Assembly: GCF_004359965.1 (NCBI RefSeq)
Contig: NZ_SMRQ01000009.1
Location: 1 to 64,000, forward strand
Reading direction: 5' to 3'
Source: Cognatilysobacter segetis
GTDB taxonomy: Bacteria; Pseudomonadota; Gammaproteobacteria; Xanthomonadales; Xanthomonadaceae
DNA: 64,000 bases
The position numbers and the translations under genes are program-made. The stretch's first letter is position 1; each line of letters begins with the position of its first letter. The notes under the pieces are model-generated. The model was not told the DNA's origin, made no database searches, and saw nothing but the letters and a program-made list of their open reading frames with translations. Of this stretch, positions 26,792 through 44,759 are shown piece after piece.

Positions 26792-26861
26792 AAGCGGCAG
26801 GAGAAAGCACCTGCAAAGGGCCGAAGTTGTTCAAGGCGTTCGCGCTGGGCTGGCCGCTCCG

Positions 26862-26987: not shown

Positions 26988-26991
26988 CGAC

Positions 26992-27099: not shown

Positions 27100-27147
27100 G
27101 ACGAAAGAGCGCAAGAGTGTCCTGAACAGTTCAGTGAAAGTTGGCGG

Positions 27148-27696
27148 ATGCCGCTAATGACAAGTGATCAAGGGTTTGTTCGAATGTCCATGGCCAGCTT
27201 TGCGCCCGGCTGGGCCTTTGAGCTGATCCCTGAGGCGCACGAGAAGGTGCGCCTTGGCTACGAAGCCGAGAACCGACGCCTCCGCGGAAGTCGCTTCATC
27301 GCCGTCGTGCTGCGTCACGAATTCGACTACGACGGGCTGAGCGAGGACATTCTTCAGCTGAGCGGGTTTGCCGAGCTAGAAGAAGCGCAGCGCTACGCAG
27401 ACTGGCTAGTAGAGCGCCGAATCAGCACTGAGCATTTGCGGCCCGGTCGAGAGAAGTGGCTGCTGGCTGGCGGGAGGAGCGGCCTGCACCAGGCGCTCCA
27501 CCAGCCCTCGCGTCGTATCTCGGACGGCACCGGTTTCAATAGCTGCTACATCACGGTGGGCGTTTTCGCCGCGGGAGAGCACGTTCCTTTGGACGGCGGC
27601 ATGCTGACCGCCATCGATCACAGCTGGGAGCTATCCCGCTACTTCCAGTACGTCGCGAAGGCCGCGGCTTCAGCGGAGGTAGCCAGTCGTGTCTGA
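27148..27696 (+). CDS. Hypothetical protein, 182 residues, defence-island neighbour
   Basis: I do not recognise this protein. It is soluble, with no signal or membrane segment. A charged N-terminal part (HEKVRLGYEAENRRLRG, HEFDYDGLSEDILQLSGF, ADWLVERRIS) is followed by a Gly/Ser-rich part (GGRSGLHQALHQPSRR) and a hydrophobic YITVGVFAAGEHVPLDGG segment. Its stop overlaps the GTG start of the Abi_C gene by 8 bp, so the two are almost certainly co-translated and may act together. The start is uncertain: ATG codons occur at 27148, 27157 and further in, and the ribosome site is weak. Confidence 0.7.
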   Translation: MPLMTSDQGFVRMSMASFAPGWAFELIPEAHEKVRLGYEAENRRLRGSRFIAVVLRHEFDYDGLSEDILQLSGFAELEEAQRYADWLVERRISTEHLRPGREKWLLAGGRSGLHQALHQPSRRISDGTGFNSCYITVGVFAAGEHVPLDGGMLTAIDHSWELSRYFQYVAKAAASAEVASRV

Positions 27697-28498: not shown

Positions 28499-28507
28499 GG
28501 CCGCGCC

Positions 28508-30226
28508 GTGCTGGAAGGGACGCTGCCGATATCGCCTCATTGCGTGCCCTTTGGCCTCAGGGACGGCCAGATGCATGGTGTGGAAGACGTGCCCACCGGA
28601 AAGGCCTGCGGGTGCATCTGTCCTGAGTGCAACAGCCCGCTTATCGCGAAGAACGCGGGCCTTAAGCAGCAGCACCATTTCTCGCACCAGGCCGGCTACG
28701 GGAGCGACGCCTGCCGGGAGACGGCCATCCACCTCATTGCCAAGCAGATCCTGGTGCGCGCTCGCCAGCTCCTCCTCCCCGAGTGGAAGCGACGCTGCGA
28801 GCTTCGCGATGTTTCCGGCACGCCACACTTCTTGAATCACGAGCGGCCCGCCAAGCCCTGGGGCTACGCGGAGGCGACCGAAGAGGTCTGGCAGGACGGA
28901 ATCCGCCCCGACGTTTTTCTTTCCGATCGCGGGGCCGCAGCAACGCTGCCCCTTCTGGTTGAGGTCAAGGTCTCCCATGCCGTGGATGACGCCAAGGCGC
29001 ACCTGGTGCGCCACCGCGGTTGGGCGATGGTCGAAATTGACCTCTCCAAGACTCCGGACGATGCGCTAGCCCCATGTGCGTTTGAGCGCTACGTGCTCGA
29101 GGGCGCGCCCCGGAAGTGGATCCACGCGCCAAAGGCCGAGCAGAGGTTCGCGGAAGCGCGCCTAGTGCTACGGGCCAAGGTGGACGCGATCAACGCCGAG
29201 CTGCGCAGGCAAGGCGTGGAAGAGCGCGACGCCTTCGGCCGCACTGCCAAGGAGAGGCAGAAGCAGCAGGACATTGATCGGCTGCGCGACTCACGGCGTC
29301 GGGAATACATGCGTGATCTCGATGCTCTTGAGCGCAAGGTGCTGCCAGAAGCGCTGCGGCAGAGGGAAGAAGAGCTGCAGGCCAAAGAAGCCGAGCAGAT
29401 CGCCGCGCTTCTTCGCAACTTCGGCGGTCAGGTGCCGCCATTTGCCCGCACCGCCCACCGCCACGCATGGGCGCTGAATACCTCGAGCATGCGCTGGCAC
29501 CTCGCGGCGGCGGACCACTTCGTGCTCTCGGCCAAAGAGGGCGCCCGCGTCACGGCCGGGGCTGTCTCCCGTTGGCTAGAACACTCGTTCGGCGTCGATG
29601 AAGTAGCGGCGCGTCTCATCGAGGCGCAGAAAATCGACCGGGACCGGAAGCGAAAGCGCGGGGACGCGAACGTGGCCCGGACTGCTTGGTTCTTCGATGA
29701 CTGGGAAAATGGAGCTATCCCGAGCGTTTTTCATGCGGCAGACCACCTTCTTGATCGCTTGGCGATAGCTGGGCACCTATTGCGGGCCGAAAAGTGGACG
29801 TATCTCGTAGATGGCCCGGTCGGCCGCCACGCGCGCCTGGAAGAGAGCAAGCGCCGGCAGGCTGCGGAGGCTGAGGCACGGCGCAAGGGGCGCGAAGAGG
29901 ACGAACGGCGCCTTGCCAAGGCGATTGCAGAGGCCGAGGACCAGCAGCGCCTGGCAGCCATCGAGCGCGAAGCGACTGACGAGCTGAGGCGAAAGCGTGT
30001 TGAGCAGCTGACGGCCGTATATCACGCGCTCGCCGAGCGAAGCGGCGAATGTCTGGACTGCCAAAACTGCCGCTGGCCCAGCCCGCCGGGCGTTGCTGCG
30101 TGCCCCAACTGCGGCTCTCCAAGCCTTCTGCTGATCAAGCTTGATGCCAGCCGCCTACGGGAGGTGCCGCACCGCCTGCGCAGCGACTACTGCATAGTGC
30201 GCTGCCGTTCGTACCCGTTTGAATAG
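28508..30226 (+). CDS. CoiA-like nuclease with coiled coil and zinc ribbon
   Basis: A 572-residue protein starting with GTG. N-terminal zinc-finger-like CICPECNSPLIAKN with HHFSHQAG and CRETAIHLIAKQIL is the competence-CoiA pattern. A nuclease-fold motif follows, RPDVFL (about 131-136) and LLVEVKVSHA (about 149-158), a PD-(D/E)xK arrangement. A long Arg/Glu/Lys/Ala-rich stretch in the middle and another near 430-500 are probable coiled coils. The C-terminus holds CLDCQNC and CPNCGSP, a zinc ribbon (about 514-540). It closes the block behind the type III system. Not a real competence gene by context; a DNA-targeting defence nuclease is the likelier reading. Confidence 0.72.
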   Translation: MLEGTLPISPHCVPFGLRDGQMHGVEDVPTGKACGCICPECNSPLIAKNAGLKQQHHFSHQAGYGSDACRETAIHLIAKQILVRARQLLLPEWKRRCELRDVSGTPHFLNHERPAKPWGYAEATEEVWQDGIRPDVFLSDRGAAATLPLLVEVKVSHAVDDAKAHLVRHRGWAMVEIDLSKTPDDALAPCAFERYVLEGAPRKWIHAPKAEQRFAEARLVLRAKVDAINAELRRQGVEERDAFGRTAKERQKQQDIDRLRDSRRREYMRDLDALERKVLPEALRQREEELQAKEAEQIAALLRNFGGQVPPFARTAHRHAWALNTSSMRWHLAAADHFVLSAKEGARVTAGAVSRWLEHSFGVDEVAARLIEAQKIDRDRKRKRGDANVARTAWFFDDWENGAIPSVFHAADHLLDRLAIAGHLLRAEKWTYLVDGPVGRHARLEESKRRQAAEAEARRKGREEDERRLAKAIAEAEDQQRLAAIEREATDELRRKRVEQLTAVYHALAERSGECLDCQNCRWPSPPGVAACPNCGSPSLLLIKLDASRLREVPHRLRSDYCIVRCRSYPFE

Positions 30227-30229
30227 TGG

Positions 30230-30257
30230 TTGCCGCCCCAAACGAGCTGGCTACTAT
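30230..30257 (+). promoter_or_regulatory. Candidate sigma70-type promoter of the nuclease trio
   Basis: TTGCCG (30230-30235) and TACTAT (30252-30257) are separated by 16 bp, each four of six matches to consensus. They lie in the only sizeable gap (57 bp) between the CoiA-like gene and the next cargo operon, 26 bases before its GTG. Confidence 0.35.
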
Positions 30258-30283
30258 GGCTCGACCACTTGAGGTAACTGACC

Positions 30284-31036
30284 GTGCCGGAAGCCGAGGC
30301 TACACCTACGATACGAAAGCAGGTTGCCGACCTGGCCGCCGAGCTTATCCGAAAGCAGCCCACTGGCATTCGCTGGAGTGAGCTTCATCAGGCTATTCGC
30401 GAGAAATTGAACGTAAATCCCAATACCGCGACGGGCTCGCTGCGTTACTTCGCCAACCATCTGCCCGGCGATATCTACAAGGCTGATCGGGGGGTCTACG
30501 CGGTCGTCGACCCTGCCGAGCAGAAGGAAGAAGCGCCGCAGCCAACGCCGGCCTCGGTGAAAGTGCGCGAGCAGCACTTCTATGAGCCTTTCGCGGCTTG
30601 GCTGGTAGGTGAGCTGGAAGAAGCCACTAAGGCCGTTGCGATTGGCGGGAATGGGGCGGGCGGCAAGTGGGGCACCCCAGACGTAATCGGGCTCTATAGC
30701 CCGCGCAAAACCGATCCGATCCAGTTCACCGAAGAAGTAGTTGCGGTCGAAATCAAGATCGACACCCAAAGCCTCATCACCGCCTTTGGACAAGCCTGCG
30801 CCTACCGGCTGTTCGCGCACCGGGTCTACATTGCCGTGCCCCAAGACGCCAACCCCAGAGACCTGAAGCGACTCGATGCGCTCGCGGTGCTTATGGGCAT
30901 CGGGCTCGTGAAGTTCAATGCCGACAAACCGGAGGCGCCTGACTTCAGCGTAATGGTGCGCGCGTCGAAACACGAGCCCGACTACTACTACACCAACGAA
31001 ATTCTGAGCACCTTTAGGGATGAGCTGGGGCTATGA
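30284..31036 (+). CDS. Winged-helix plus PD-(D/E)xK nuclease-fold protein
   Basis: A 250-residue soluble protein starting with GTG. Residues 10-75 form a winged-helix/HARE-HTH-like domain (VADLAAELIRKQPTGIRWSE, then DIYKADRGVYAVVD). The rest is a restriction-endonuclease-like fold: GTPDVIG (Asp133), AVEIKID (Glu156, Lys158) and a helix with GQACAYRLFAHRVYIAVP (Gln170). All the catalytic residues of the PD-(D/E)xK fold appear present. Its stop overlaps the start of the Mrr-like gene by 4 bp. First gene of a tight three-gene operon upstream of Gabija. No match to a named system comes to mind. Confidence 0.72.
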   Translation: MPEAEATPTIRKQVADLAAELIRKQPTGIRWSELHQAIREKLNVNPNTATGSLRYFANHLPGDIYKADRGVYAVVDPAEQKEEAPQPTPASVKVREQHFYEPFAAWLVGELEEATKAVAIGGNGAGGKWGTPDVIGLYSPRKTDPIQFTEEVVAVEIKIDTQSLITAFGQACAYRLFAHRVYIAVPQDANPRDLKRLDALAVLMGIGLVKFNADKPEAPDFSVMVRASKHEPDYYYTNEILSTFRDELGL

Positions 31037-32022
31037 GCGACAAGCAAGGGGCCTTCATTCTTCGGATTGCCCCTGGTGGGGAGGATATGGTGGGCGCAGC
31101 GCTCGCGCGGGATGAAATCCTCATCGGGTGGCCTGATGCAAAAGGACTCACTGCCATCGCAACGGAGTGGGCGCCGTTTCGCCAAACGGTTTCTGATGCG
31201 TATTACCCAAACGAGCCCAATCAGCGAAAGGCCGGGGGCGCGGCCGGACAGCTGTGGCGCTTTATTCGGCAGATGCAGGTTGGAGACTTGGTGGTCGTCC
31301 CGCACCCTGGTGTTTTCTACGTTGCTCAAGTAATTAGCGACGCGCAAAAAGGCAGCAGCGAGCATGACTTTTACCGGCGAGAAGTGAAGTGGCTTAACAA
31401 CAAGCAGCCGATCCCAAGAAAGTTTGCCCGTGCTGCGCTTCAATCGCGCATGAAGGTTTACAACAGCTGCGCGGACGCCAGTGATCTTGTAGACGCCATC
31501 GCTGAGTGCCTTCAGCTGGCGGGAGAGGACAAGCAGCCGGAATTCCATAGCGACCTGCACTCTCGCTTGGTGGGCCAGACAATCGATGAGATCCGTGGTG
31601 GTCGCATGGATTCATATGGGTTTGAGGCGCTTATCCGAAGCCTTATGCTCTCAATGGGCGCGAGGCAGTGCTCAATCGTCGCGAGGTCCAAAGACTTTGG
31701 CGCGGATCTTGTCGCCACGTTCCTGCTCGCCGGTGTATTCGAGCTCCGCATTGCGATCCAGGCGAAGCACTACTACGACGCTAGGCGCCCCATGGGCGCT
31801 GGAGTAGTCGGAGAGGTGATCCGAGGCATCGAGCGTGAGAACGCGAATCTCGGAATGATTATTACGGCAGGCAGTATTTCTGAAAGCGCTTCCGCTGCCG
31901 CGCAGGCCTATTTCGACGAAAAGGGGATCAAGATCGAGCTGGTGGACGGCGAGCAGTTTGCTGCCCTTATTGTGGAGCGCGGCGTTGGGGCTTACCACGC
32001 GGCGCCCGGAGGCCACTCATGA
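31033..32022 (+). CDS. Mrr-like restriction endonuclease with PUA/EVE-like N-terminus
   Basis: A 329-residue protein. The N-terminal 115 residues (ILIGWPDAKG, RFIRQMQVGDLVVVPHPG, FYVAQVISD) look like a PUA/EVE-type domain that senses modified bases. The C-terminal 140 residues are an Mrr catalytic domain: YGFEALIRSLMLSMGA, DFGADLVA (Asp225), AIQAKHYY (QAK at 243-245), MIITAGSISESA and IKIELVDGEQ. Mrr-type enzymes cut DNA containing foreign modifications. Here the domain pair predicts a modification-dependent nuclease. Overlaps its neighbours by 4 bp on each side. Confidence 0.82.
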   Translation: MSDKQGAFILRIAPGGEDMVGAALARDEILIGWPDAKGLTAIATEWAPFRQTVSDAYYPNEPNQRKAGGAAGQLWRFIRQMQVGDLVVVPHPGVFYVAQVISDAQKGSSEHDFYRREVKWLNNKQPIPRKFARAALQSRMKVYNSCADASDLVDAIAECLQLAGEDKQPEFHSDLHSRLVGQTIDEIRGGRMDSYGFEALIRSLMLSMGARQCSIVARSKDFGADLVATFLLAGVFELRIAIQAKHYYDARRPMGAGVVGEVIRGIERENANLGMIITAGSISESASAAAQAYFDEKGIKIELVDGEQFAALIVERGVGAYHAAPGGHS

Positions 32023-32546
32023 CCATTCGATGCGCTATGACTGGCAGGCCAATGGACGTAGGCGACGGCATCTATGACGACGGTGAATGGATTTCATGGG
32101 AATACATCAACCAGCACCTGTATGAGCGTGAACTTCGAGAAGAGTTCCCGCAAGCTGATCTTCAGCTCATCAAAGTATTTGAGACCTTGGTAGAGGCGGC
32201 AGCTGACTATAAAGATCTCACCGGGCGATCCCTGCAGGTATGGGGAGAGCTCGGCGAGCTTTACGCGGAGCTCAAATTCGGGATTAAACGGCACAAGGCA
32301 CATGCGCCAGGCAGTGACGGGCGTATGGGCAACGACTTCGTCGAAGTGAAAACTATTTCGCCCGAAAAGACTGGCGAACAGGTAAGCGTTAAGCGCGCTG
32401 GTAATTTTAACAAGCTGTGCGTAGTGCGAATTACCGAAAAGTGGGAATTTACCTCGCACATGATCGATCGCAAGCGACTCTCAAAGGGAAATGGGGGGAG
32501 AGTCGCCAAGGTCCGTTGGAAAGACATCAGCAATACGCCGGAATAG
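32019..32546 (+). CDS. Small nuclease-fold protein, third gene of the trio
   Basis: A 175-residue protein. An N-terminal acidic region is followed by a helix WGELGELYAELKFGIK (75-90) and then GNDFVEVKTI (Asp106, Glu109, Lys111), a compact PD-(D/E)xK-like active site, plus strands LCVVRITEKWEF and a basic C-terminus. This resembles small restriction-like domains attached to DNA-recognition partners (DUF6998-like layout, tentative). It overlaps the Mrr-like gene by 4 bp (ATGA). It may be a third nuclease or a structural, catalytically tuned partner. Confidence 0.65.
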   Translation: MTIRCAMTGRPMDVGDGIYDDGEWISWEYINQHLYERELREEFPQADLQLIKVFETLVEAAADYKDLTGRSLQVWGELGELYAELKFGIKRHKAHAPGSDGRMGNDFVEVKTISPEKTGEQVSVKRAGNFNKLCVVRITEKWEFTSHMIDRKRLSKGNGGRVAKVRWKDISNTPE

Positions 32547-32645
32547 GTTGGCGCGTGGCCAGCTACGACCGCGGTAGAAGGCGGCTGCGAAGCTTGGCTT
32601 TGAGGCCAACCGACGGATTGCTAGAGATGCGCGCAATACAATGCA

Positions 32646-32682
32646 ATTGGCCACAACCCTGCGGCACATATTCAAATTGGCC
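32646..32682 (+). repeat. Direct repeat ATTGGCC upstream of gajA
   Basis: The heptamer ATTGGCC occurs at 32646-32652 and again at 32676-32682, exactly 30 bp apart (about three helical turns), in the 182-bp gap before gajA. The spacing suits a dimeric or repeated regulator site, but no partner is known. The rest of the gap contains no gene. Confidence 0.35.
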
Positions 32683-32728
32683 GCGGTGACACTATCCACC
32701 CAGTCATCCGCAACGGGTCCTAGCTGCC

Positions 32729-34531
32729 GTGAAAATCACACGGATTCGCATCGAAAACTTTCGGAACTTCCGCACGATCGATGTGCCGGTGGACGGCAAC
32801 GTCGTCCTTGTAGGCGAGAACAGCGTAGGGAAGAGCAACTTTCTCTATGCGCTGCGCCTAATCTTCGATCCTACGCTGCCTGACAGCGCGCGCCACCTTA
32901 CCGTTGGCGATTTCTGGGACGGCTTGGGCGAGCCATTGGAAGATGAAAGAATCGTCGTATCGGTCGAGTTGCAAGATTTTGAACGAACGATGGGGGTCTT
33001 GGCTCTACTTACCGACTTCCGCCTTGATGATGACGAAAAGACGGTCCGACTAACGTACGAGTTTCGACCAATCAGCGGTCTCGACGGGCCTCCCCGGACG
33101 AGCGACGACTACGAGTTCGTTTGTTACGGTGGACAATCCGACACCAAACGGGTCACGCACGATCTTCGCCGCAGAATTGCCTTAGACCTTTTACCGGCGC
33201 TGCGTGATGCGGAGGGCGATCTGAGTGCGTGGCGTAGGTCGCCCCTCCGCCCGCTACTTGAGCGAGCCTTCGCAAAGGTGCCGGGCGACGACCAAAAAGA
33301 AGTTCGAGATGCGGTGCATTCGGCAACGACGCAGTTGACCGACTTTCCTACCGTGCGGGACTTAGAAGCAGCGATCCGCGACTTGTACGCATCGATGAGT
33401 GGTCCCAAGCAGGACATCAACGTGGGATTGGGTTTCGGCGTAACTGAAGTTTCCCAGCTGTACAGAAATATTCGGCTTCTTATCGATGGGGGGCTGCGGA
33501 CCATTGGCGACGCCAGCTTGGGGTCGGCGAACGTGACGTTCCTAACGCTTAAAACCCTCGAGCTGCGTCAGCTGCTGGGTGAGAACAGGCGTGATCACAC
33601 CCTGCTTGCTATAGAAGAACCTGAAGCCCATCTGCATCCCCATCTGCAGCGTTCGGTCTACCGACACCTTTTCGACGCATACGCAGGGCGCGACGATGAA
33701 GAGCCGCTTTCTTTGCTGCTGACCACTCATTCGCCACACATAGCTAGCGTCGCCCCCCTCAGATCGCTGGTGCTGCTGCGAGACAGCGGAGCGAATGGCA
33801 CGGTAGCGACGTCTGCCGCGGGGATTTCGTTGTCGGGTGCGGAGGAGGAAGACCTCCAGCGCTATATGGACGTAACCAGAGCTGAAATGCTGTTTTCGCG
33901 CGGAATTATCCTCGTAGAAGGCGACGCAGAGAAGTTTCTGATGCCCGTGTTCGCAACCTCCATGGGCTATGACCTCGATCACCTCGGGATCACCGTCTGC
34001 TCGGTTGCGGGAACAAACTTCGCTCCATATGCAAAGTTCCTGGCCGGCATGCAGATTCCGTTTTCGATTGTGACGGACTGGGACCCGTTGGGCGCTGACA
34101 AGACACCGCTCGGGTTCAATCGTACTTGGCGGCTAGCGGCGGTGATCGAGCAGGCGCGCACAGGCGAGAGTCAAGATGAACTCGCGGCGGAGCTAAGGGA
34201 AATGGACGATGTCGACGCATTCTGTCGGGAGTGCGAACGATACGGAGTTTTCTCAAACAGCCACACGCTCGAGGTCGACCTTTTCGAGTTGAGGAGGTTT
34301 CGTGGATCTATCGCAGAGACGCTGAACGAGCAGAAGCTGAGTGCTGAGCGTCGTGATCTCATAGACGCGTGGGTAGGCCGCCCCAATACGCTCGACCATA
34401 AGATCTATTTGGCTATGATCGAGCGCATAGGTAAAGGGCGTTTTGCTCAGCGGCTGGCTTCGCGGGTCGACGACGTCGCGCCGCCGCCCTACATCCAGCG
34501 CGCGATAGATCACGTGGTAGCGCGTGTCTAA
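32729..34531 (+). CDS. gajA: GajA, Gabija ATPase/TOPRIM nuclease (OLD family)
   Basis: Nicking endonuclease of the Gabija anti-phage system, 600 residues, GTG start. The N-terminal ABC-type ATPase has Walker A GENSVGKSNF (29-38), Walker B LLAIEEPEAHLHPHLQ (about 293-308) and TTHSPHIASV. The C-terminal TOPRIM domain shows ILVEGDAEKFLMP (about 392-404) and VTDWDPLGADKTP with the metal-binding Asp-x-Asp. Domain order and length fit GajA. Its stop is overlapped by the gajB start (8 bp), the standard two-gene arrangement. Confidence 0.9.
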   Translation: MKITRIRIENFRNFRTIDVPVDGNVVLVGENSVGKSNFLYALRLIFDPTLPDSARHLTVGDFWDGLGEPLEDERIVVSVELQDFERTMGVLALLTDFRLDDDEKTVRLTYEFRPISGLDGPPRTSDDYEFVCYGGQSDTKRVTHDLRRRIALDLLPALRDAEGDLSAWRRSPLRPLLERAFAKVPGDDQKEVRDAVHSATTQLTDFPTVRDLEAAIRDLYASMSGPKQDINVGLGFGVTEVSQLYRNIRLLIDGGLRTIGDASLGSANVTFLTLKTLELRQLLGENRRDHTLLAIEEPEAHLHPHLQRSVYRHLFDAYAGRDDEEPLSLLLTTHSPHIASVAPLRSLVLLRDSGANGTVATSAAGISLSGAEEEDLQRYMDVTRAEMLFSRGIILVEGDAEKFLMPVFATSMGYDLDHLGITVCSVAGTNFAPYAKFLAGMQIPFSIVTDWDPLGADKTPLGFNRTWRLAAVIEQARTGESQDELAAELREMDDVDAFCRECERYGVFSNSHTLEVDLFELRRFRGSIAETLNEQKLSAERRDLIDAWVGRPNTLDHKIYLAMIERIGKGRFAQRLASRVDDVAPPPYIQRAIDHVVARV

Positions 34532-36296
34532 TCGGGCGGCATACCTTCGAGCGGCCGAGCATCTGCGCGGCAACTCTGGCCAGTGGCAGGCGTATGAGTC
34601 CGTAGGCCACTGTGTCGTGCTAGCTGGGCCGGGGAGCGGCAAGACCCGCACGCTGACAACAAAAATGGCGCGAATGCTAGCCGAGGATGTGCCCGAGCCA
34701 CGAGGAATCGCGTGCATCACCTACAACAACGAATGTGCCCGCGAGCTAGAAGACCGCCTCGCTGCACTTGGAGTTGAACCAGGCCGAAGAGCATTCGTTG
34801 GGACCATTCACTCTTTCTCGCTGACGCAAATCATTCTTCCCTACGCGAAGGTTTCTGGCATGGACCTGCCGGATGAATTTCGTGTTGCGTCTCGGACAGA
34901 GCGCGCCGAGGTCATGAAAGCGACTCTCACTGGGCTTTCTAACCAACGTGAGTGGGAATCACGCTTGTCAGCTTACCGGCGATCTCACCTTGATCGTGCG
35001 AGCGACGCTTGGCGAGAGAACGATCCGACCGTAGCTTCGCTGGTTGAAGATTTCGAGAGTCGGTTGAGACGTAGGGGCTTGATTGACTTTGAAGACATGC
35101 CGCTGCTCGCTGTGCGGGCGCTTCGTGCACATCCTTGGCTACAGAGCGCTTTGCTCGCTAAGTACCCCGTGTTGGTGGTAGATGAATATCAAGACCTTGG
35201 TGTCGCATTGCATCAAATGGTAATGGGCTTGTGCTTCAGCACCGGCATGCGACTGTTCGCTGTCGGCGACGTGGACCAATCTATTTATAGCTTCACGGGT
35301 GCCCGTCCAGACTTGCTTGAGAAATTGGCAGGCCGAGATGACGTTGAGACAGTCGCGCTGCGGCTCAACTACCGATGCGGCAACCGCATCGTGGTCGCAT
35401 CTCGAGCTGCCCTAGGCGAGAGCCGGGAGTACGAAGCTATAGCCGGAGCGGCGCAGGGGGCTGTGCATATACACAGCTTGTCCGGGGACTACGCACGCCA
35501 CGCGGACGAGCTAATGGCGGCGCTCTTACCAGCGGCGCTGGCGCGCAACTCGGAGCTCAATTACGGGGATGTCGCTGTGCTTTACCCGTTCGCTTGGATG
35601 GGAGACGCTGTGGCAGAAAAGGCCAAAGCGCTCGGCATTGGGTTCTTGAGAACGGACAGCAAAGCCTTGTATCCGCGCAGTAGCCGTTTGATGCAATGGA
35701 TAGAGCTTTGTGCGCAGTGGTGTTGTGGTGGATGGCGTACGGGCGCCCCTCGGTTCTCAAAAATCGCGGATCAAGGCCGTCGCACATTCTCAGAAGTGTT
35801 GAACTCTGAGGAGACCTGCGTTGACTTCCAAAAGAGATTGATTGGCTACTTATGGGCACGGCGCAGCCCTGGGCTACGGCTGCATGACTGGCTGAACGAT
35901 TTGGTTGCGGAGGTTATTGAGCCCTTAGCGGACGAATGCATGTCCCTTCACGACGAGCTCGAAATCCTTGCAATGTTCATGGCCCGTGTGGCGCCCGACG
36001 GCGATTCCTGCGAAATGGAGCTCGGAAGCTTGGCGGGTGATGGGGGACAGCTGAACCGCCTCACCCTGTCCTCGCTTCATAGCGCAAAAGGCCGAGAGTT
36101 CGGCTTGGTGTTCATGTTCGGCTTAGATGCGCGGTACTTTCCGCATCCGCGCGCGGATGCGTCAGAGATGCTAGAGGCTCGCCGCTTGTTCTACGTGGGA
36201 TTCACTAGGGCGAAGTCGGAGGTTCATTTGATCCATCCGCGCGAAGCGGCATCTCGCTTCGTCGGCCATATTCGTAGCCACTTAGAACAAGCGTAG
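34524..36296 (+). CDS. gajB: GajB, Gabija UvrD-like helicase
   Basis: Superfamily 1 helicase partner of GajA, 590 residues, GTG start. Motifs: AGPGSGKTRTLT (34-45), CITYNNECARELEDRL, GTIHSFS, VVDEYQDLG (about 217-225), GDVDQSIYSFTGARP, SSLHSAKGREFGLVF and RRLFYVGFTRAKSEVHL, the full UvrD/Rep set. It is longer than some GajB proteins (about 490-520 residues) but of the same design. Translation is coupled to gajA. After it comes an 87-bp gap with a GC-rich inverted repeat but no convincing terminator. Confidence 0.9.
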   Translation: MSNRAAYLRAAEHLRGNSGQWQAYESVGHCVVLAGPGSGKTRTLTTKMARMLAEDVPEPRGIACITYNNECARELEDRLAALGVEPGRRAFVGTIHSFSLTQIILPYAKVSGMDLPDEFRVASRTERAEVMKATLTGLSNQREWESRLSAYRRSHLDRASDAWRENDPTVASLVEDFESRLRRRGLIDFEDMPLLAVRALRAHPWLQSALLAKYPVLVVDEYQDLGVALHQMVMGLCFSTGMRLFAVGDVDQSIYSFTGARPDLLEKLAGRDDVETVALRLNYRCGNRIVVASRAALGESREYEAIAGAAQGAVHIHSLSGDYARHADELMAALLPAALARNSELNYGDVAVLYPFAWMGDAVAEKAKALGIGFLRTDSKALYPRSSRLMQWIELCAQWCCGGWRTGAPRFSKIADQGRRTFSEVLNSEETCVDFQKRLIGYLWARRSPGLRLHDWLNDLVAEVIEPLADECMSLHDELEILAMFMARVAPDGDSCEMELGSLAGDGGQLNRLTLSSLHSAKGREFGLVFMFGLDARYFPHPRADASEMLEARRLFYVGFTRAKSEVHLIHPREAASRFVGHIRSHLEQA

Positions 36297-36383: not shown

Positions 36384-37106
36384 TCATGGGTCGCGAGTCC
36401 AGATCGCCTCGACACCGTCGCCCTGAAGCCATTCGGGGAACGTCTCATCGGGTCCGAAGGTGACTAGGTCGACGGGCCTTGAGATGCGCACTGCGACTTC
36501 AGCCAGGACTAGCGCGATGGCACGTGCGATTCGTTCACTTGCGGCCTGTGGCGCCCCGACTGCCACGATGTAATGAGTGGGCTGCCCTTGCCACTCCCCC
36601 CGCCAGCCCGACAGCAAGTACACGGCGAACACCCCCGGCACGGCTCGGGCTTGAGCTGCTATGTGATCAGCGAGCCAAGAATCTGCAGGGTCAGCGGGAA
36701 TGACTTGCATGTCATTGACGTGACCGTGCATTGGCGCAATTTGCGCAATGCCTTGGTCGAGCAGCAATGAAATTTCCTCCGGATACAGCATGGTCGATAG
36801 GTCGTTCGGGTTGAGCATCAGTGTCGCTCCGCGTGTGCACTCGAGCAGCTCGCGGCCCTGGACGCAAGCTACCCGGACCGCACCTTGAGCAGCGGTTGTG
36901 GCCTTGTCGACCGCGGTGAAGACGGGGATAACAGCAATCCCATCTGGGCGAGTGAACTGAACGATGCGCACGCGGCCGGAATCGTCGGAGAGCGGGAGGT
37001 GCACGTAGAGCGGAGCATCTAGCAAGGCTCGAAGGAATACTGGTTCAAGCGCTGGATCTTGAGCGGCGCGTTCAATGATCTGTTCGAGACGGGGCTTGCT
37101 TTCCAT
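36384..37106 (-). CDS. SseB-family protein
   Basis: A 240-residue soluble protein. The N-terminal half (PALEPVFLRALLDAPLYVHL, IVQFTRPDGIAVIPVFT, LECTRGATLMLNPNDLS) matches the SseB N-terminal domain; the C-terminal half (VPGVFAVYLLSGWRGEWQ) matches the SseB C-terminal domain. SseB proteins were named for enhanced serine sensitivity in E. coli; the molecular function is unknown. It is antisense to the defence genes. The start at 37106 is preferred; the longer frame is not conserved-looking. Its presence as cargo is unusual. Confidence 0.78.
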   Translation of the reverse strand: MESKPRLEQIIERAAQDPALEPVFLRALLDAPLYVHLPLSDDSGRVRIVQFTRPDGIAVIPVFTAVDKATTAAQGAVRVACVQGRELLECTRGATLMLNPNDLSTMLYPEEISLLLDQGIAQIAPMHGHVNDMQVIPADPADSWLADHIAAQARAVPGVFAVYLLSGWRGEWQGQPTHYIVAVGAPQAASERIARAIALVLAEVAVRISRPVDLVTFGPDETFPEWLQGDGVEAIWTRDP

Positions 37107-37163
37107 ACCAGAGAGTAAGAGATGCTTATGTCTGATGGTAGTCCAACACCGGCCCCTCGACGC

Positions 37164-37185
37164 AAAAAAACCCCGCATAGCGGGG
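37164..37185 (-). terminator. Rho-independent terminator of the XRE gene
   Basis: On the minus strand CCCCGC (37185-37180), loop TAT, GCGGGG, then seven T. It lies 25 bp downstream of the XRE stop and upstream of the SseB start, so the two minus-strand genes have separate transcripts. Confidence 0.9.
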
Positions 37186-37209
37186 CTCTGATAGTCCGGG
37201 TTGTCGGAA

Positions 37210-37608
37210 CTACTTAGGTTTGGCCCGGCGCGGCGATAGCTTCTTCACCGCTTCCGGCCGCGTAGTCCGGCCGCTCGGCCGCGGCACCTTCACTGCGTCC
37301 GCCTCAGCGCGTTCCGCGTATTTCCGGCGCTGTTCCGCCGTTAGGTTCGGCCACGCAAGTAGGAGCCGCGCCAATAACTCATCCTTTGTGGATAGGTACG
37401 CGGCAGGCACGCCGAGGGCATTGGCGAGCTCGAGCACCATCTCCTGCCGGGGCTGGTGGACGCCGTTCTCATACTGATTGATGCGGGGGCCGGCCACGCT
37501 TTCGTCCACCCCGACGCGTACGCCGAGCTCTTGTTGGGTGATCCCCGCACGCTCGCGCGCCTGTCTCAAACGCATCGAAAAAAGCGAGGGCTGCCCCGGC
37601 CTAGCCAC
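37210..37608 (-). CDS. XRE-family transcriptional regulator
   Basis: Helix-turn-helix DNA-binding protein of 132 residues. The HTH is MRLRQARERAGITQQELGVRVGVDES, followed by INQYENGVHQPRQEMVLELANALGV (Cro/C1 type). The C-terminus is basic (GRTTRPEAVKKLSPRRAKPK). Start: GTG at 37608 with AGGAG eight bases upstream; this decides against the longer frame from 37698, which would run through the promoter region. Divergent from the unknown gene at 37708 and probably autoregulated through the palindrome at 37667-37679. Confidence 0.82.
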   Translation of the reverse strand: MARPGQPSLFSMRLRQARERAGITQQELGVRVGVDESVAGPRINQYENGVHQPRQEMVLELANALGVPAAYLSTKDELLARLLLAWPNLTAEQRRKYAERAEADAVKVPRPSGRTTRPEAVKKLSPRRAKPK

Positions 37609-37666
37609 CAATCCGACTCCTGTATACCCGGCAGATAGGGTGAACAAGATCGGGGCGTATTCATAG

Positions 37667-37679
37667 TAAGATATCCTTA
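37667..37679. promoter_or_regulatory. Operator-like inverted repeat between divergent genes
   Basis: TAAG-ATATC-CTTA, a 4-bp inverted repeat around a 5-bp centre, in the 99-bp gap between the XRE gene and the 37708 gene. It abuts a TACTAT -10-like hexamer read on the minus strand (37668-37663). Suggestive of autoregulation, nothing more. Confidence 0.3.
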
Positions 37680-37707
37680 TGTTTCCGGCCACAGGCACCG
37701 GTCGTCG

Positions 37708-38870: not shown

Positions 38871-39965
38871 ATGAATTACTACGGCACAACGGTAGTGCGT
38901 GACGTCAACATACGTGGCCGCACCTGCAAGCGCTTTCCCATTGTTGCTACCGCTGGCGGGGAGGTATTGCTTGAGGTCATGCGGTATCTCATTAGCTGCG
39001 TGGCGCAAGGTTCGGCCGAATCAGGGCTGATCACCTATGCTGCCCATCTCAGGGATTTTCATGAGCAGCTGCGTGTTGATCAGATGCACGTAAGGGGCGT
39101 GACACTCGATTTTCTGAACCGTTACAAGGCTGCGATCAAGGAGAGGGCGTCCGCGCCGTACGCAGGCCAGGTCCTGCGCACCGTGCTTGCCTACCTCCAT
39201 TACCTCGAGGGTCGCGGTGCGATCTGTGGAGTCATCGGCGAGACCGACGAGTACCAGGTCACGATCACGCGCACTAGGTCCGGCGGTATCTCTCATAACT
39301 TGGCGGCCGACAGTGCGTCTCCCAAGTCAAACTACGTACCCAGTGATAAGTCTGTGCAGACGATCAAGCGGTTCGGCCCGGCAGGTCCTGTGCATAGGGA
39401 ACGGTTCGAGCTAATGCTTGACTGGGCGCACGTTAAGGGGCTGCGGGCGATGGAACTCTGCGGGCTGACGTGCGCGCAGATTCCCTCGTGGCCGGCGATC
39501 AATGCTGCCCTCAGCGATGACCGAACGCTTGAGCTGCGTCTCCTGGTAACCAAGGGCCAAAGAGAGCGCAATGTCGACGTCCATCCCCTCTTGCTTTCGC
39601 GAACGCGTAAGTGGATCGAGGCTGATCGCCCGAAGGTTAATAGGGCTGCCAGACGTAGAGCGGAAAAAGCGGGTAGGCCTTACGCAACAACCGATGCGCT
39701 GTTCCAGTCATCTACGACAGGCGAAGCGATCACGCCGAAGGCGCTGTCGAACATGGTGCGATCAGCTTTCAAGGCAGCGGTTGCCTCAGGAGAGCTCATG
39801 GAGGACCAGCGCGTGTGGACTCACGGACTGCGAAAGGTGATGGTTAATCGCGAGGTCAAGAGCCGTCCGCGATCGGAACGCCGTCCGCCAGAGCGTGCGG
39901 TCATGCAGCAGACCGGACACGGCTCACTCGCAAGTCTCGGCCACTACGTCGTTGACTCGCAATGA
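38871..39965 (+). CDS. ginA: GinA-like tyrosine recombinase
   Basis: First of three integrases, 364 residues. Catalytic set: Arg in GLRAMELCGLTC (about 189-200), Lys in VTKGQRERNVDVHP, HGLR in VWTHGLRKVMV (about 316-326), His in QQTGHGSLASLGHYV and the likely nucleophile Tyr in GHYVVDSQ at the extreme C-terminus. All active-site residues appear present. The N-terminus has an SAM-like core-binding region (LITYAAHLRDFHEQL). Its stop overlaps the ginB start by 4 bp. The operon layout and location at an island end identify it as GinA; a Tn554 TnpA-like origin is the alternative description. Confidence 0.82.
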   Translation: MNYYGTTVVRDVNIRGRTCKRFPIVATAGGEVLLEVMRYLISCVAQGSAESGLITYAAHLRDFHEQLRVDQMHVRGVTLDFLNRYKAAIKERASAPYAGQVLRTVLAYLHYLEGRGAICGVIGETDEYQVTITRTRSGGISHNLAADSASPKSNYVPSDKSVQTIKRFGPAGPVHRERFELMLDWAHVKGLRAMELCGLTCAQIPSWPAINAALSDDRTLELRLLVTKGQRERNVDVHPLLLSRTRKWIEADRPKVNRAARRRAEKAGRPYATTDALFQSSTTGEAITPKALSNMVRSAFKAAVASGELMEDQRVWTHGLRKVMVNREVKSRPRSERRPPERAVMQQTGHGSLASLGHYVVDSQ

Positions 39966-41791
39966 AGCGTTCGCCGCTGCTTAAGACAGGTGAAACCACC
40001 AGGCCGTGTGCACCCGAAGTGTCGCCAACGGCGCCTGCGCAATCTGTTGTGCAGCTTCCGTCATTCACTCCTGAACTCTTCGGACGTCGGCTAGACCTCG
40101 AGATATTGCGCTCCTTCCCCTCGGGGCATCAGCTGGTGCATGCGCTTGTCGATTGGCAGGGAGCGAAGCGCGGCGGGTACACGGTTGGTCTGGATGTTCG
40201 TCGATACGCGCGTCACGTCGTCTCTACCGGTGCGCAGTTCGGAACACATTCGCTACAGACCTTTCGCGACTCTCTTGGCTCAGACGCCTCGCTATCTGAC
40301 GGAACACGACGGTCGTATTACTCCAACGCTGCGGCATATGTAACCGTCCTGGCGAAGAGAGGTCTGGTGCCCGACGACGACTTGCCTGCGGGATTCCACA
40401 GCGTTCGCACGCTTCCGAAGGCGACTTTTGCGGAGTCAGCGAACAACTGGGAGCGTGTTAAAGAGACTGCGGAATTTAGCCAGTGGCTGGGGTCCGTCGC
40501 TCATATCCCGAACCTCGACAAAACTCAAAGAGAGGTACTGGCTGTTTCGCAGGGGTGGATGGGGCTTCTCGAGGACTCAGCTGAGAGGGTCGTTCGGCAA
40601 CACGTCGCGGATTGGGAGTTCGCGGATGCTGCCATTAGGAAATATCAGGCTGGCGATGCAGAGCGAGGCTGGCTACAAGGCCGCTCTATAGAAGCTGCCA
40701 TTGCGCACCTATACGCAATGTTTGGCTATGTCCTGCCGGGCTCGCCCGAATGGCCAGCCGGGGTCGCAGACTACTGCAAGAAACGCGGTTGGAATGCCGA
40801 TCGCGTGCGTGCCGCGCTATTCCCTACGGCGAAGTCGTTAGATGCATTCCTCGTTCTGGCGTTAGCGAATCCCGAATTGGCGCCAAATGTCGATTCTGTG
40901 CTGTTTTATTCGTTCAAAGGGTGCGTCACACCCACCGAGGACGCGAGCAAGTTCCGTGTCGTCTTCGGCAAGTTTCGCGGAAGTGGCGCCGATGCTTCTC
41001 TCGAGAGGCATCATGCGCTCGTTATAGGGCTGCAAGCCCTCGAACGCGTGGTCACGCGCGTAGTGGGCCCTCGGTTCAGCAGTTATAGGGAGCTAACGCG
41101 GGATGGCGGTGTGCCGCTCTTCCTGCACGCATGTACGCGAACGAGGCCGGTGCAGGTCAAGACGCTGGATCCAGGCATGGGCGCCTACATGGTGCGGCGG
41201 TTTATCCGAAAGGCAGCCAAGGGTCATCTAGCGCTATCTCCTTTGGTCGAAACCGTAACCGGCGAGCAGTTTCGGACCACGCATTTCCTAACGCGCAGTC
41301 TGCGGGGCGAATCGATTTTCGCGGTGCAGCGCATTGCAAAGCACTCTGATCCCGAAACGACCCTTGGCTATTTGAATCGTGTCGAGGTCGAAGCCAGCAA
41401 TCGAATTAGACACAGGGACTACCAAAACTACCTAATTACTGAGGCGCGCGCACGCCGAGCGAAGCGACTTGGCAACGGCTTTCACTGCGACCCAGATAAT
41501 GCGAAGCAGGAACAGTGTGCTCGCCTCGATGCGTGTGGTGCGGGCGAGGATGGCTGTCAAGCCCGCCGAATTGTCCTCGAATCTCCAAAGATCGTTGCGG
41601 AGTGGCTCGCTTGGTCAACACACATTGAAGAGAAGGCGGCGTACTTGCAGGAGCACCGGCCAGAGCGTTGGACGGCAGTGTGGGGGCCTCGACTGATCGA
41701 GTATCAGGTACTTCTCGAATCCACGTCCGCGACGGTACGAGCCGAGGCGCAGGTGTATGTCGCTCAAGTAGCGCTCCTGCCGCTGGAGTAA
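39962..41791 (+). CDS. ginB: GinB-like large tyrosine recombinase
   Basis: A 609-residue integrase-family protein. The recognisable C-terminal core is EQFRTTHFLTRSLRG followed by QRIAKHSDPETTLGYLNRV (about 435-468): the box-II arginine, the KHS histidine and the GYL tyrosine are present, but the usual HxxR histidine position reads Glu (EQFR). The first catalytic arginine is not obvious. Downstream there is a cysteine cluster (HCDPDN, QEQCARLDACGAGEDGC) suggesting zinc binding. This matches the large TnpB-like members of three-recombinase elements. Coupled to ginA by overlap and 2 bp from ginC. Confidence 0.78.
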   Translation: MKRSPLLKTGETTRPCAPEVSPTAPAQSVVQLPSFTPELFGRRLDLEILRSFPSGHQLVHALVDWQGAKRGGYTVGLDVRRYARHVVSTGAQFGTHSLQTFRDSLGSDASLSDGTRRSYYSNAAAYVTVLAKRGLVPDDDLPAGFHSVRTLPKATFAESANNWERVKETAEFSQWLGSVAHIPNLDKTQREVLAVSQGWMGLLEDSAERVVRQHVADWEFADAAIRKYQAGDAERGWLQGRSIEAAIAHLYAMFGYVLPGSPEWPAGVADYCKKRGWNADRVRAALFPTAKSLDAFLVLALANPELAPNVDSVLFYSFKGCVTPTEDASKFRVVFGKFRGSGADASLERHHALVIGLQALERVVTRVVGPRFSSYRELTRDGGVPLFLHACTRTRPVQVKTLDPGMGAYMVRRFIRKAAKGHLALSPLVETVTGEQFRTTHFLTRSLRGESIFAVQRIAKHSDPETTLGYLNRVEVEASNRIRHRDYQNYLITEARARRAKRLGNGFHCDPDNAKQEQCARLDACGAGEDGCQARRIVLESPKIVAEWLAWSTHIEEKAAYLQEHRPERWTAVWGPRLIEYQVLLESTSATVRAEAQVYVAQVALLPLE

Positions 41792-41793
41792 TA

Positions 41794-43545
41794 ATGAGTC
41801 CTGCGATCACTCAGGCTGTTAGCCCGGCCGAAAGTAAGCGTATGCAACCGCATCTCGACATTAGTGGTTGTACGTGGCTTTTGCCTGCGTCTAACGTCGA
41901 TTGCTGGTTCTTTCGTCAAGACACGGCGGGGTATGCCTCAAGTCACTACACTGTGACGTGGCAGCTGGCACACGACGCGAACGTCAGCCATGCAAGGCGG
42001 GAGTATTGGATCGATGTTGCCCAACGTGCCGTACTGAAGTACGCAACGGATGCGCGCAGGCCTAGACGGGTGACATCGACGATCGGCTTTGCTCGTAGCG
42101 TGCGGTCATTCGCTCAGTGGGCCTGCTGCGTCCGATACTGCGAGTCACTAGCGGCAGTATCAAAGGACGACGTAAATGCATACGAGCGCTACATCGAAGG
42201 TCTAGGGCTCACCCAGTCAACTGTCGAGAATCGCTTGAGTGCGGTGCGGACGCTTGGCGAATGCCTAGACGCGCATGGGCGGAAGTTGGCATGGCGGCCG
42301 TACAGATATCGAGGCGACTTGCGTAAGGCGGTGAAGCGCGTAGGGCGGGCGGACGGGCGGACACGTACGCTGGAGCCAGAGGCCTTTTTTAGTCTCCTCG
42401 ACTACTGCCTGTCACTGATTGAAGATGCTGATGGAGCGGTGGCCAGGGCGGAGGCGTACTTGGCCTACCGCGATCTGCCGCGACGTAGCCCGTGGCCGGA
42501 AGTTCTGAACGGGTGGTCGGCAAAGCAGATCATCACAGAGGCGCGTCTTACCTACGGTGCATGCATCGTCTTAGCATTTTCGCTGCTCGGTTCTCGAAAG
42601 CACCAACTTGCCCTGCTGGACGTTTGCGACCTTCCTAGCCGAGGAGCGTCGGAGGATTCCATCCTCGCGGGCCGAGTGAGTAAGACATCTAATGGCCCGG
42701 GTGGGACCGCTACGGCGCAGCCTGTCATCGGGGAATTGGAGCGCGCGCTTAGGATCGTGGTGCGGCTGACAGGGGTCGATCTGAACATCGGCACTGGTCC
42801 ACTGTTCCGGTGTCTCAAGTTGGACGAAGGCCTGAACTCGAAGGTTGAGCGAGCGTTAGATACTAATCAGGTCTATCGGCTAATCACCAATGTAGCGAAG
42901 GCTGCCGACATTAAGATCGTAGTCCGTCCCCACATGTTTCGGCGTGCATTCTCCATGCTTTACGTGTGGAGATATGAACTGGGTGATCTTCAGCATCTGA
43001 GCCGATTCCTCCATCACAATAGTTTGAGTCACACGATTGTGTATGCCCAGGGCGATGACGTTTCGGTCTTTATGGGGGATGCGCAGCGCGAACTGGCCAA
43101 GTCCATCATGGAACGCGCCATCACCGGTCAGGAGCCGGTAGGCGGTTCGCTCAGTGCTCTACTGCGACGCTTGGCTACTCGATTGAGATCACAAATATCT
43201 CTGCTCCGGTCCGATCAGATTGATGACTGGATCGAATCCAAGTTAACAGAAGGCCAATTCACGCTTAAAGCTGCGCCGCATGGTTACTGCTTGATTCTCG
43301 GCAGCCGGGGTAGGCGCAGTATGTGCTCAACGGATGGACGAACGCCGGACTATGGGAACCGAACGGACGAGCATTGCGCCGCCTGCGGAAACTTTGTCTT
43401 TACCGAGCGTTCGAGGCAGTACTGGGAACAACGTGTGGCTGCGCACGAACAGGTGGCAAAGACAACCCGTTTGCCCGTACTACGGAAGGCGGCGCAGGAC
43501 GCAATTGCGGCGGCACGCCATGCCCTCTCTACCTTAGGGCTGTAA
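41794..43545 (+). CDS. ginC: GinC-like tyrosine recombinase
   Basis: A 583-residue recombinase. Catalytic residues visible: Arg in LLGSRKHQLALLDV, a Lys in RVSKTSNGPGG, HMFR in VRPHMFRRAFSMLYVW (about 377-392), His in SRFLHHNSLSH and Tyr in TIVYAQ. The N-terminal half has a core-binding-like helical domain (YERYIEGLGLTQSTVENRLSAV-type). The C-terminus has CSTDGRTPDYGN and HCAACGNF, a probable zinc knuckle as in GinB. Start ATG at 41794 lies two bases after the ginB stop. Its stop shares a base with the ginD start. Confidence 0.8.
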   Translation: MSPAITQAVSPAESKRMQPHLDISGCTWLLPASNVDCWFFRQDTAGYASSHYTVTWQLAHDANVSHARREYWIDVAQRAVLKYATDARRPRRVTSTIGFARSVRSFAQWACCVRYCESLAAVSKDDVNAYERYIEGLGLTQSTVENRLSAVRTLGECLDAHGRKLAWRPYRYRGDLRKAVKRVGRADGRTRTLEPEAFFSLLDYCLSLIEDADGAVARAEAYLAYRDLPRRSPWPEVLNGWSAKQIITEARLTYGACIVLAFSLLGSRKHQLALLDVCDLPSRGASEDSILAGRVSKTSNGPGGTATAQPVIGELERALRIVVRLTGVDLNIGTGPLFRCLKLDEGLNSKVERALDTNQVYRLITNVAKAADIKIVVRPHMFRRAFSMLYVWRYELGDLQHLSRFLHHNSLSHTIVYAQGDDVSVFMGDAQRELAKSIMERAITGQEPVGGSLSALLRRLATRLRSQISLLRSDQIDDWIESKLTEGQFTLKAAPHGYCLILGSRGRRSMCSTDGRTPDYGNRTDEHCAACGNFVFTERSRQYWEQRVAAHEQVAKTTRLPVLRKAAQDAIAAARHALSTLGL

Positions 43546-44117
43546 TGAACAAAAAACACGTTTCTGAGGTGGCATCCGCACGCTTCGAGGCTGCCGTAAG
43601 AGCTTCGCTGAAGCAGCATATTGAGCTACGGCAACCATTCAGCGTTAGTGATGTGATCTCAAACGCGAAGTACGAGGATGGGGCGAAGGTAGGCGCCACC
43701 ACCATCTATGCGCGGAGCTCTAAAGGCGTGCCAGTGCATGCGAAGCTTTTGGCAGAGCTGAAGGCAGCTGCGGTTGCATCCAGAAGCCGACGGCCTCGTT
43801 TCGAGCCTGGCGTGCCTCCCGGTGCAGTAGTCGACGCAAAATTGGGCGTCTTCAAGCAACTAGTAGAGCAGGAGGCTCGCCTACAAGAGGCGGAGGCCGC
43901 AACTGCAGGCCTCAGGCACGAGCTCGGTAGTGCGCAGGAGGGGTGGTACGTAGCGTTGGCGTGCTTGAACGTATTGAGTAAAGGTGCGGTATTGGAGGTA
44001 GTTCGCCCGATGAGGGAGCTCGAGACGATCTTCGCAGACGAAGACCTCGTGGCCCGGCTGAGAGATCAAGCTCAGGCGTTGGCGGCTACGTGTGGTCGTT
44101 TGGTGCGCACAAAATGA
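43545..44117 (+). CDS. ginD: GinD-like small recombination accessory protein
   Basis: A 190-residue, mostly helical basic protein (ARFEAAVRASLKQHIELRQ, LLAELKAAAVASRSRRP, a Glu/Ala-rich helix LVEQEARLQEAEAATAGLRH). The N-terminal 70 residues, with FSVSDVISNAKYEDGAKVG and TTIYARS, resemble a small helix-rich DNA-binding domain of the kind found in TnpC-like proteins. The start codon overlaps the ginC stop (TAATG). In GInts the fourth gene is essential for integration and excision; the assignment here is by position and size. Confidence 0.72.
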   Translation: MNKKHVSEVASARFEAAVRASLKQHIELRQPFSVSDVISNAKYEDGAKVGATTIYARSSKGVPVHAKLLAELKAAAVASRSRRPRFEPGVPPGAVVDAKLGVFKQLVEQEARLQEAEAATAGLRHELGSAQEGWYVALACLNVLSKGAVLEVVRPMRELETIFADEDLVARLRDQAQALAATCGRLVRTK

Positions 44118-44209
44118 GACGAGCACGTGGTCCAATGAGTGTCGATGCGTCCGGCAGCCGTTAAAATTGCCGAGTTCACTGCGAGTTCTACCCATAAGTC
44201 TATGGATAG

Positions 44210-44237
44210 TTAAGAACTCTCCGCCCCGTGATAAACT
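44210..44237 (+). promoter_or_regulatory. Candidate island-borne promoter driving ssb
   Basis: TTAAGA (44210-44215) and TAAACT (44232-44237), 16-bp spacing, each four of six consensus matches, in an AT-rich stretch at the island right end. A purine-rich ribosome site (AAGGAAAAGGA, 44250-44260) follows just before the ssb ATG at 44265. These are the only expression signals left for ssb apart from read-through from the gin operon. Confidence 0.5.
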
Positions 44238-44264
44238 ATTGAAAAGTATAAGGAAAAGGAACAT

Positions 44265-44759
44265 ATGGCTAGCAGGGGCGTGAATAAAGTGATCCTCGTC
44301 GGCAACCTCGGCAACGATCCCGAGGTGAAGTACACCCAGGGCGGCATGGCGATCACCTCGCTGAGCCTGGCCACGACGAGCGTGCGCAAGGACCGCGACG
44401 GCAACCAGCAGGAAAAGACCGAGTGGCATCGCGTCAAGCTGTTCGGCAAGCTCGGCGAGATCGCCGGCGAGTACCTGAAGAAGGGCCGCCAGGTCTATAT
44501 CGAGGGCCGCATCGAGTACGGCTCGTACGAGAAGGACGGCGTCAAGCACTACACCACCGACATCATCGCCGACGAGATGCAGATGCTCGGCGGCGGCGAG
44601 GGCGGCGGCATGGGCGGCGGGCGCGGTGAGTTCCGCGGCGGCGGCGATCGTCCGCAGCGCGCGCCGCAGTCGTCGGCACCGCCCGCGCGTCGCGAAGCGC
44701 CTGCCGCGCGCGGCAACGATTTCGGCGGCGATTTCGCGGACGACGACATCCCGTTCTGA
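44265..44759 (+). CDS. ssb: Single-stranded DNA-binding protein, start supplied by the island
   Basis: Essential ssDNA-binding protein of replication and repair, 164 residues. OB fold begins [17 protein letters not shown] and includes [14 protein letters not shown] and [19 protein letters not shown]; a Gly-rich linker (about 110-140) and the acidic tip DDDIPF that binds partner proteins follow. The first ten residues ([10 protein letters not shown]) are encoded mostly by island DNA: codons AGC AGG replace the native CGC, giving one extra residue relative to the relic at 22182. Promoter and ribosome site are also from the island. The protein should be fully functional. Confidence 0.97.
44280..44303 (+). 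other. attR, right island junction in ssb
   Basis: Island arm GTGAATAAA (44280-44288), 6-bp spacer GTGATC, host arm CTCGTCGGC (44295-44303). The island arm is the perfect reverse complement of TTTATTCAC at the left junction, so the closed circle would carry a 9-6-9 inverted-repeat core site. Confidence 0.85.

Follow-up and report, generated by a model that had tools for sequence, protein, structure and literature searches.

How does a cell go on making SSB when a mobile element has entered the first codons of its ssb gene? The window, by which we mean the whole 64-kb stretch of DNA analysed, contains an island of 22.1 kb (approximately 22209-44288) that splits ssb at codons 8-9 and carries phage-defence genes together with four ginABCD-like recombination genes (38871-44117). 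The stretch at which ssb now begins is very probably the right end of a three-recombinase, site-specific island of the GInt/SE type, which supplies the gene with its start; this reading was made from the sequence and rests on the following parts of the two junctions.

22114-22181, plus strand: displaced native ssb upstream region, with a likely -10 element (TATACT) and a ribosome site (AAAGGA)
22182-22208, plus strand: orphaned native ssb head, MARGVNKVI, which enters island DNA and meets a stop after 13 codons
22203-22208, unstranded: attL 6-nt spacer GTCATT (Val-Ile), placed by the 6-nt staggered cuts of GInts (main text of PMC5385486)
22209-22217, unstranded: left island core arm TTTATTCAC, a perfect inverted match to 44280-44288
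44118-44264, plus strand: island-supplied ssb upstream region, 147 nt, AT-rich, with ribosome site AAGGAAAAGG and a putative promoter
44265-44288, plus strand: island-supplied start codon and first codons, MASRGVNK, read from the sequence
44280-44288, unstranded: right island core arm GTGAATAAA, found by inverted-repeat analysis, which is also the codons Val-Asn-Lys
44289-44294, unstranded: attR 6-nt spacer GTGATC (Val-Ile), from comparison of repeat and core
44295-44759, plus strand: native ssb remainder, collinear with same-genus genomes and matching SSB families

An earlier, sequence-only reading of this DNA had stated that the native start at 22182 is cut off, that the right end of the island replaces the codons for MARGVNKVI, and that a purine-rich ribosome site precedes the new start. 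All three statements held: translation from ATG 22182 runs into the island as MARGVNKVIFIHL and then stops, while ATG 44265, preceded by AAGGAAAAGG, opens an intact reading frame for a 164-aa SSB (Pfam SSB 1.3e-35) and would be the point at which translation starts. The same reading had named a second intact ssb elsewhere as the evidence that would speak against it; the host genome (2.94 Mb, 133 contigs, 99.65% complete) gave one ssb match, that of the window. Together these data support the conclusion that the only ssb found now has an upstream region, a ribosome site and first codons that come from the island in place of its own, and with such a replacement the cell would keep making full-length SSB from its only copy. 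The native upstream region now lies to the left of the island and is directed into the cargo, of which the first gene, mod (22638), is on the same strand; in a related island (G1260, below) the first large ORF is likewise co-oriented.

The empty site was read in genomes of the same genus. An uninterrupted ssb head was present in 5/5 readable genomes among seven looked at, the count leaving out G001, which gave no match, and G007, in which ssb is split across contig ends. The two flanks of the window overlapped by exactly an 18-nt repeat in three of the five; at L037 the overlap was longer than 18 nt, and at L038 the left alignment ended approximately 200 nt short. All five empty sites had a -10-like TATAAT or TATACT at the native upstream place; in the window's native upstream region (22114-22181) a consensus promoter scan listed no site, and the best two-box score was equalled by 54/500 shuffles.

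Between its two ends the island carries the following genes.

22638-26791, plus strand: type III restriction-modification cargo, mod 22638-24161 and res 24083-26791 (PADLOC MTase_III 1.7e-191, REase_III 5e-174)
32729-36296, plus strand: Gabija cargo, gajA 32729-34531 and gajB 34524-36296 (PADLOC GajA 8.5e-240, GajB 6.3e-226)
38871-39965, plus strand: ginA-like tyrosine recombinase, 364 aa (Pfam Phage_integrase 3.3e-4, below gathering score; H..R..H..Y motif)
39962-41791, plus strand: ginB-like protein, 609 aa (without a Pfam match; simple scan negative for H..R..H..Y)
41794-43545, plus strand: ginC-like tyrosine recombinase (Pfam Phage_integrase 1.4e-5, below gathering score; H..R..H..Y motif)
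43545-44117, plus strand: ginD-like small protein, 190 aa (AlphaFold mean pLDDT 80.7, pTM 0.40)

The cargo from 22638 to 36296 is a defence island, or cluster, within which PADLOC also listed a PDC-S02 candidate (31033-32022). On the minus strand at 36384-37698, between this cargo and the gin operon, an SseB-domain protein is encoded next to an HTH regulator. The four genes at 38871-44117 abut one another; an integrase domain was weakly detected in the first and third, below gathering score, and was not found in the second. The ginC-like ORF was listed from 41668, ATG 41794 being taken from the translation, and its product had a profile match to the XerA structure (3.9e-6). For the ginB-like protein a profile search against the PDB returned no match and the predicted structure was unusable (pLDDT 51.9); a relationship to the ginC-like protein was considered and rejected, comparison of the GinB and GinC profiles giving it no support. 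The motif scan was a simple one that left out the first Arg, and it failed to detect the motif published for SE IntB, so the negative result for the ginB-like protein is weak; for the same reason a proposal that the motif-bearing proteins are arranged as in SEs and not as in GInts was dropped. The ginD-like protein was predicted to have a compact N-terminal part and long helices, and a search of the PDB with this fold returned no significant match.

Relatives of the island were sought with GinD in 299 genomes of the order (3 matched, the host included) and with GinC in overlapping samples: 369 genomes of the class (3 matches, two weak), 197 of the Dyella family (7 matches, one strong), 297 of the host's own family (14 matches, the one strong match being the host), 33 of the family of G102 (1 match), 398 of the phylum (2 matches at E 1e-10) and 332 of the family of G1260 (13 at E 1e-10, two strong). 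Strong relatives were found in Dyella solisilvae (G078), G102, G1260 and G1589, GinC being 45% identical between the window and Dyella islands. Wherever the right end could be read (4/4, the window included, in three bacterial families) ssb starts right beside it and ginD lies immediately upstream of the gene; the Dyella, G1260 and G1589 islands share the order ginABCD, short gap, ssb start, with the operon directed at ssb, and the gaps in the four islands are 147, 153, 72 and 81 nt. The right end of the G102 island is cut, its contig stopping 16 nt past the ginD stop. Orphaned native ssb heads were found for the window, Dyella, G102 and G1260 islands; in Dyella and G102 the head lies on a different contig from the gin operon, so that there its link to the island is only inferred. 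G1260 is a single-contig genome with the same layout and both island ends on the one contig. A search of the 5.9 kb before the contig end in G1589 did not reveal the left end of the island, and in the same genome the ginB relative (L122, 11537-13365, minus strand) is split over two reading frames. Dyella had one ssb match and G102 two, on contigs C15 and C23; the C15 match (L088), close to a contig end, starts MRNCILVGNLG without the RGVNKV head and is preceded by an AT-rich stretch in which an inverted repeat was seen by eye, perhaps another altered ssb start.

A search of genome contigs for further members yielded one locus, that of Dyella; IMG/VR scans confirmed no relative, and there was no match to GinD in plasmids or to GinC in phages. 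Plasmids gave seven GinC records at 24-27% identity, and no ssb was annotated in the three plasmid regions viewed. At its ends the Methylomonas operon has shared 9-nt words, and the Methylocella operon has none of 9 nt or more. The window profiles matched the first and third genes of two plasmid four-gene operons. On plasmid pUP202 (L093, 1489-7183) a four-gene recombinase operon, directed at the next gene, sits between traU and traN with no other annotated gene between them. None of 18 distant GinC-like stretches (G288 and G693 left out) had ssb within the stretch. Two of 12 further GinC-like stretches had an adjoining ssb: G1589, a full case, and G1401, which was rejected as a member, having only a 58-aa ginC-like scrap (E 8e-4) near a possibly native ssb. 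That scrap (L133, 2524-2697), about 300 nt before ssb, may mark a decayed island.

What the recombinases read at ssb can be proposed from the island ends, which were defined by assuming the staggered cut of 6 nt that the main text of PMC5385486 gives for GInts. Joined, the ends of the window island read GTGAATAAA-6 nt-TTTATTCAC, a perfect 9-nt inverted repeat resembling a recombinase core, the two arms lying 22 kb apart in the window. At one given place a 9/9 match has a chance of approximately 4e-6 (4 to the power -9), and simulation gave 1 and 3 such matches in 400,000 draws at 50% and 30% GC; elsewhere in the 64-kb window there are two more perfect 9-6-9 inverted repeats, so the shape alone is not unique. 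The Dyella ends, GTGAACAAA and TTTGTTCAC, also match at 9/9, and the arm difference between the two islands is compensated on both sides (GTGAATAAA/TTTATTCAC versus GTGAACAAA/TTTGTTCAC); the arms of the G1260 island match at 7/9 only. Native target sites have little inverted symmetry (6, 4 and 4 of 9, with 2.25 expected by chance). The attL/attR spacers are GTCATT/GTGATC in the window and GTCATC/GTCATC and GTAATC/GTCATC in the others, encoding Val-Ile in 6/6; all junctions read fit GTNATY, and attL and attR differ synonymously only. Nine bases of the repeat at the right end are thus likely to be one arm of a recombination core site.

We propose that the most likely target of the recombinases is the run of codons specifying V-N-K-V-I-L-V-G, the conserved start of SSB, and that they exchange strands at the 6-nt spacer encoding Val-Ile. 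Integration would cut ssb at codons 8-9, leaving the native promoter, start and first codons behind to read into the cargo, and the right end would bring the replacement: an upstream region, a ribosome site, a start codon and the codons up to Lys, of which the last three would double as one arm of the island core site. Precise excision would restore the native head. Since the spacer differences are synonymous, strand exchange resolved either way would leave SSB intact.

The imperfect repeat that flanks the island, GGCGTCAACAAGGTCATT (22191-22208) and GGCGTGAATAAAGTGATC (44277-44294), is identical at 13/18 positions, and its five differences are all synonymous and all at third codon positions, for which the chance, calculated post hoc, is 1/243 if differences were evenly spread. 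It had been claimed that the differences in the repeat are all at third positions. This is correct, but the rule is confined to the 18 nt: just 5' of them the Arg codon (CGC/AGG) differs at positions 1 and 3 and one Ser codon has been added. It had further been argued that the pattern reflects shaping of the end to encode SSB, and this explanation is sound and incomplete: all four readable right ends are kept coding for SSB and their heads follow the island lineage, which argues for a coding constraint, but nine of the bases also form a core arm. An inverted core arm overlapping SSB codons gives the third-position rule two likely causes, the SSB codons and a recombination arm obliged to mirror the other end.

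The expression of the rebuilt gene is the point at which an alternative has most weight. The earlier claim of an AT-rich, promoter-like region stands as to composition: the 147-nt gap between ginD and ssb is 46% GC, against 59% in the island and 70-72% in the flanks. As to promoter consensus it does not stand, the gap scoring no better than shuffled sequence: a consensus scan of 44118-44264 found 0 sites, the best extended -10 (4/6) was reached by 366/1000 shuffles and the best two-box score by 397/500. Promoter signals in the right ends of three relatives are weak too, an extended -10 of 5/6 being reached by 61-120 of 1000 shuffles. An operator was also looked for and rejected; the best inverted repeat upstream in the window is 7 nt, matched by 21/100 plain shuffles, with 7 nt in G1260 (11/100), 9 nt in G1589 (1/100) and none of at least 6 nt in the Dyella upstream region. 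It is conceivable, then, that ssb owes most of its expression to read-through from the gin genes, the 147 nt being an att site or 3' island end with no promoter of its own. The absence of any terminator-like site between ginD and ssb in the window and the short gap (72-153 nt over the four islands) leave room for this, as do the fact that in 4/4 readable right ends ginD is the gene immediately before ssb and shares its strand, the lack of a promoter above chance in the window gap, and, in G102, a ribosome-site-like AGGAG immediately after the ginD stop, 16 nt before the contig end. However, the window and Dyella gaps are kept at 147 and 153 nt with conserved blocks, TATACT follows TG at the same aligned place in G1260 and G1589 (a weak hint), and a recombinase operon would need constant expression to feed an essential gene. 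Read-through as the main source is accordingly a possibility that we hold to be the less probable one, and ssb may be served by its own island promoter or by gin read-through. In a small sample, predicted folding of the start region was weaker in island heads than in native heads in 3/3 pairs (island/native -7.2/-11.5, -10.3/-12.9 and -3.0/-10.0 kcal/mol).

A second alternative concerns the origin of the head, which an imprecise excision might have taken from the ssb of a previous host, with no history of selection on the island. The spacer GTGATC does occur in the native ssb of 3/12 pattern-fitting loci (29 own-family loci looked at), and SE elements are reported, in the main text of PMC10214605, to carry 6 bp from their former site. 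Yet the window and Dyella islands encode M(A/S)SRGVNK where the native heads are MARG(V/I)NK, and the G1260 and G1589 islands encode MNRGINK where the G1260 native head is MASRGVNK. Heads that go with the island lineage in hosts of different families, and that are unlike the native head of the host they sit in, indicate that the head travels with the element, a conclusion supported by these four heads; AGC-AGG-GGC-GTG-AA(T/C)-AAA is common to islands whose GinC are 45% identical, and one core arm lies inside the head. We regard capture as unlikely. An assembly chimera joining two ssb loci, for which the draft state of the genome (133 contigs) might speak, is next to negligible, because a single contig holds both junctions, the flanks align collinearly with the genomes of the genus, and the layout recurs in G1260, a genome of one contig that carries both island ends.

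If the island does supply the start of ssb, a mobile element can use a highly conserved protein-coding site without killing its host. The target would be read as DNA by the recombinases and as codons by the ribosome, with the end of the element built for both, and a sole, presumably essential replication gene would be placed under the signals of a defence-gene island. This raises the question of whether SSB supply follows recombinase expression. A bolder version, which we put forward tentatively and consider rather unlikely, is that the recombinase transcription unit ends with ssb, whose only start is on the island, imprecise loss of the end being lethal and precise excision silent. The island would then be held in place without a toxin, SSB supply would be tied to recombinase expression, and the hold would sit at a core site written in the codons of a conserved protein. 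What appears to be new here, as read from the sequence, is a conserved subtype with an operon directed at ssb and a dual-coded att core. In the literature searched, which comprised main texts and few subscription papers, we did not meet an ssb head provided by an island, the use of such a head as a core arm as well, or an operon that faces outward; part of these novelties may have been anticipated elsewhere.

Among known systems the nearest are GInts, the ginABCD genomic islands of Bardaji et al. 2017 (PMC5385486), whose main text describes targeting of the end of ssb and, in one named genome, of its beginning; outward promoters of GInts are already in print, and so is their role as defence carriers in E. 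coli (PMC10121019). Like GInts, the window element has a four-gene layout, with three putative recombinase-like genes and one small gene, a 6-nt spacer, site-specific insertion and an AT-rich end; the imperfect direct repeats of approximately 10-17 nt that mark GInts have their counterpart in the 18-nt repeat of the window (13 identical), and the insertion site is the same in 4 islands. By the published criteria GinA and GinB carry an RHRHY motif that in GinC is incomplete. Unlike GInts, in which the operon is at the 5' end and cargo directly follows ginD, the window has its cargo ahead of the operon, and ssb comes 147 nt after ginD. In the main text of PMC5385486 we met no replacement ssb head, and neither a core of inverted repeats nor spacers that differ synonymously.

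SEs (PMC10214605, main text, which does not mention ssb) resemble the element in that their joined ends are inverted repeats around a 6-bp spacer, here matching at 9/9, 9/9 and 7/9, with published repeats of 13-19 bp; SE IntA and IntB are published with the recombinase motif, which our simple scan found in the first and third window proteins. They differ in that the window operon is oriented the other way relative to the island end. The four pAQU1 proteins (IntA, Tfp, IntB, Srap), taken as SE genes by order and cargo, had no phmmer match at E 10, and the ginC-like profile matched SE IntB weakly (0.0014, in a set of 12 proteins).

Provision of a new promoter and N-terminus by an island is already in print for dusA and prfC. 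The dusA-specific islands insert in the 5' end of dusA and supply promoter, start and N-terminus (PMC8409611, PMC4482086), the new N-terminus being 61% identical over the first 35 residues; they are like the window element in hitting the 5' end of a housekeeping gene whose start the island supplies, with expression from the island promoter shown, by reporter, for dusA only (PMC8409611), and they differ in having a single integrase of another family and dusA, not ssb, as target. SXT/R391 ICEs at prfC likewise insert at a 5' end (as described in PMC8409611 and PMC2791158), and differ in being conjugative, with one Int plus Xis, at another gene. Compared by layout and ends, the element in the window is most aptly described as a separate subtype of GInt/SE-type island.
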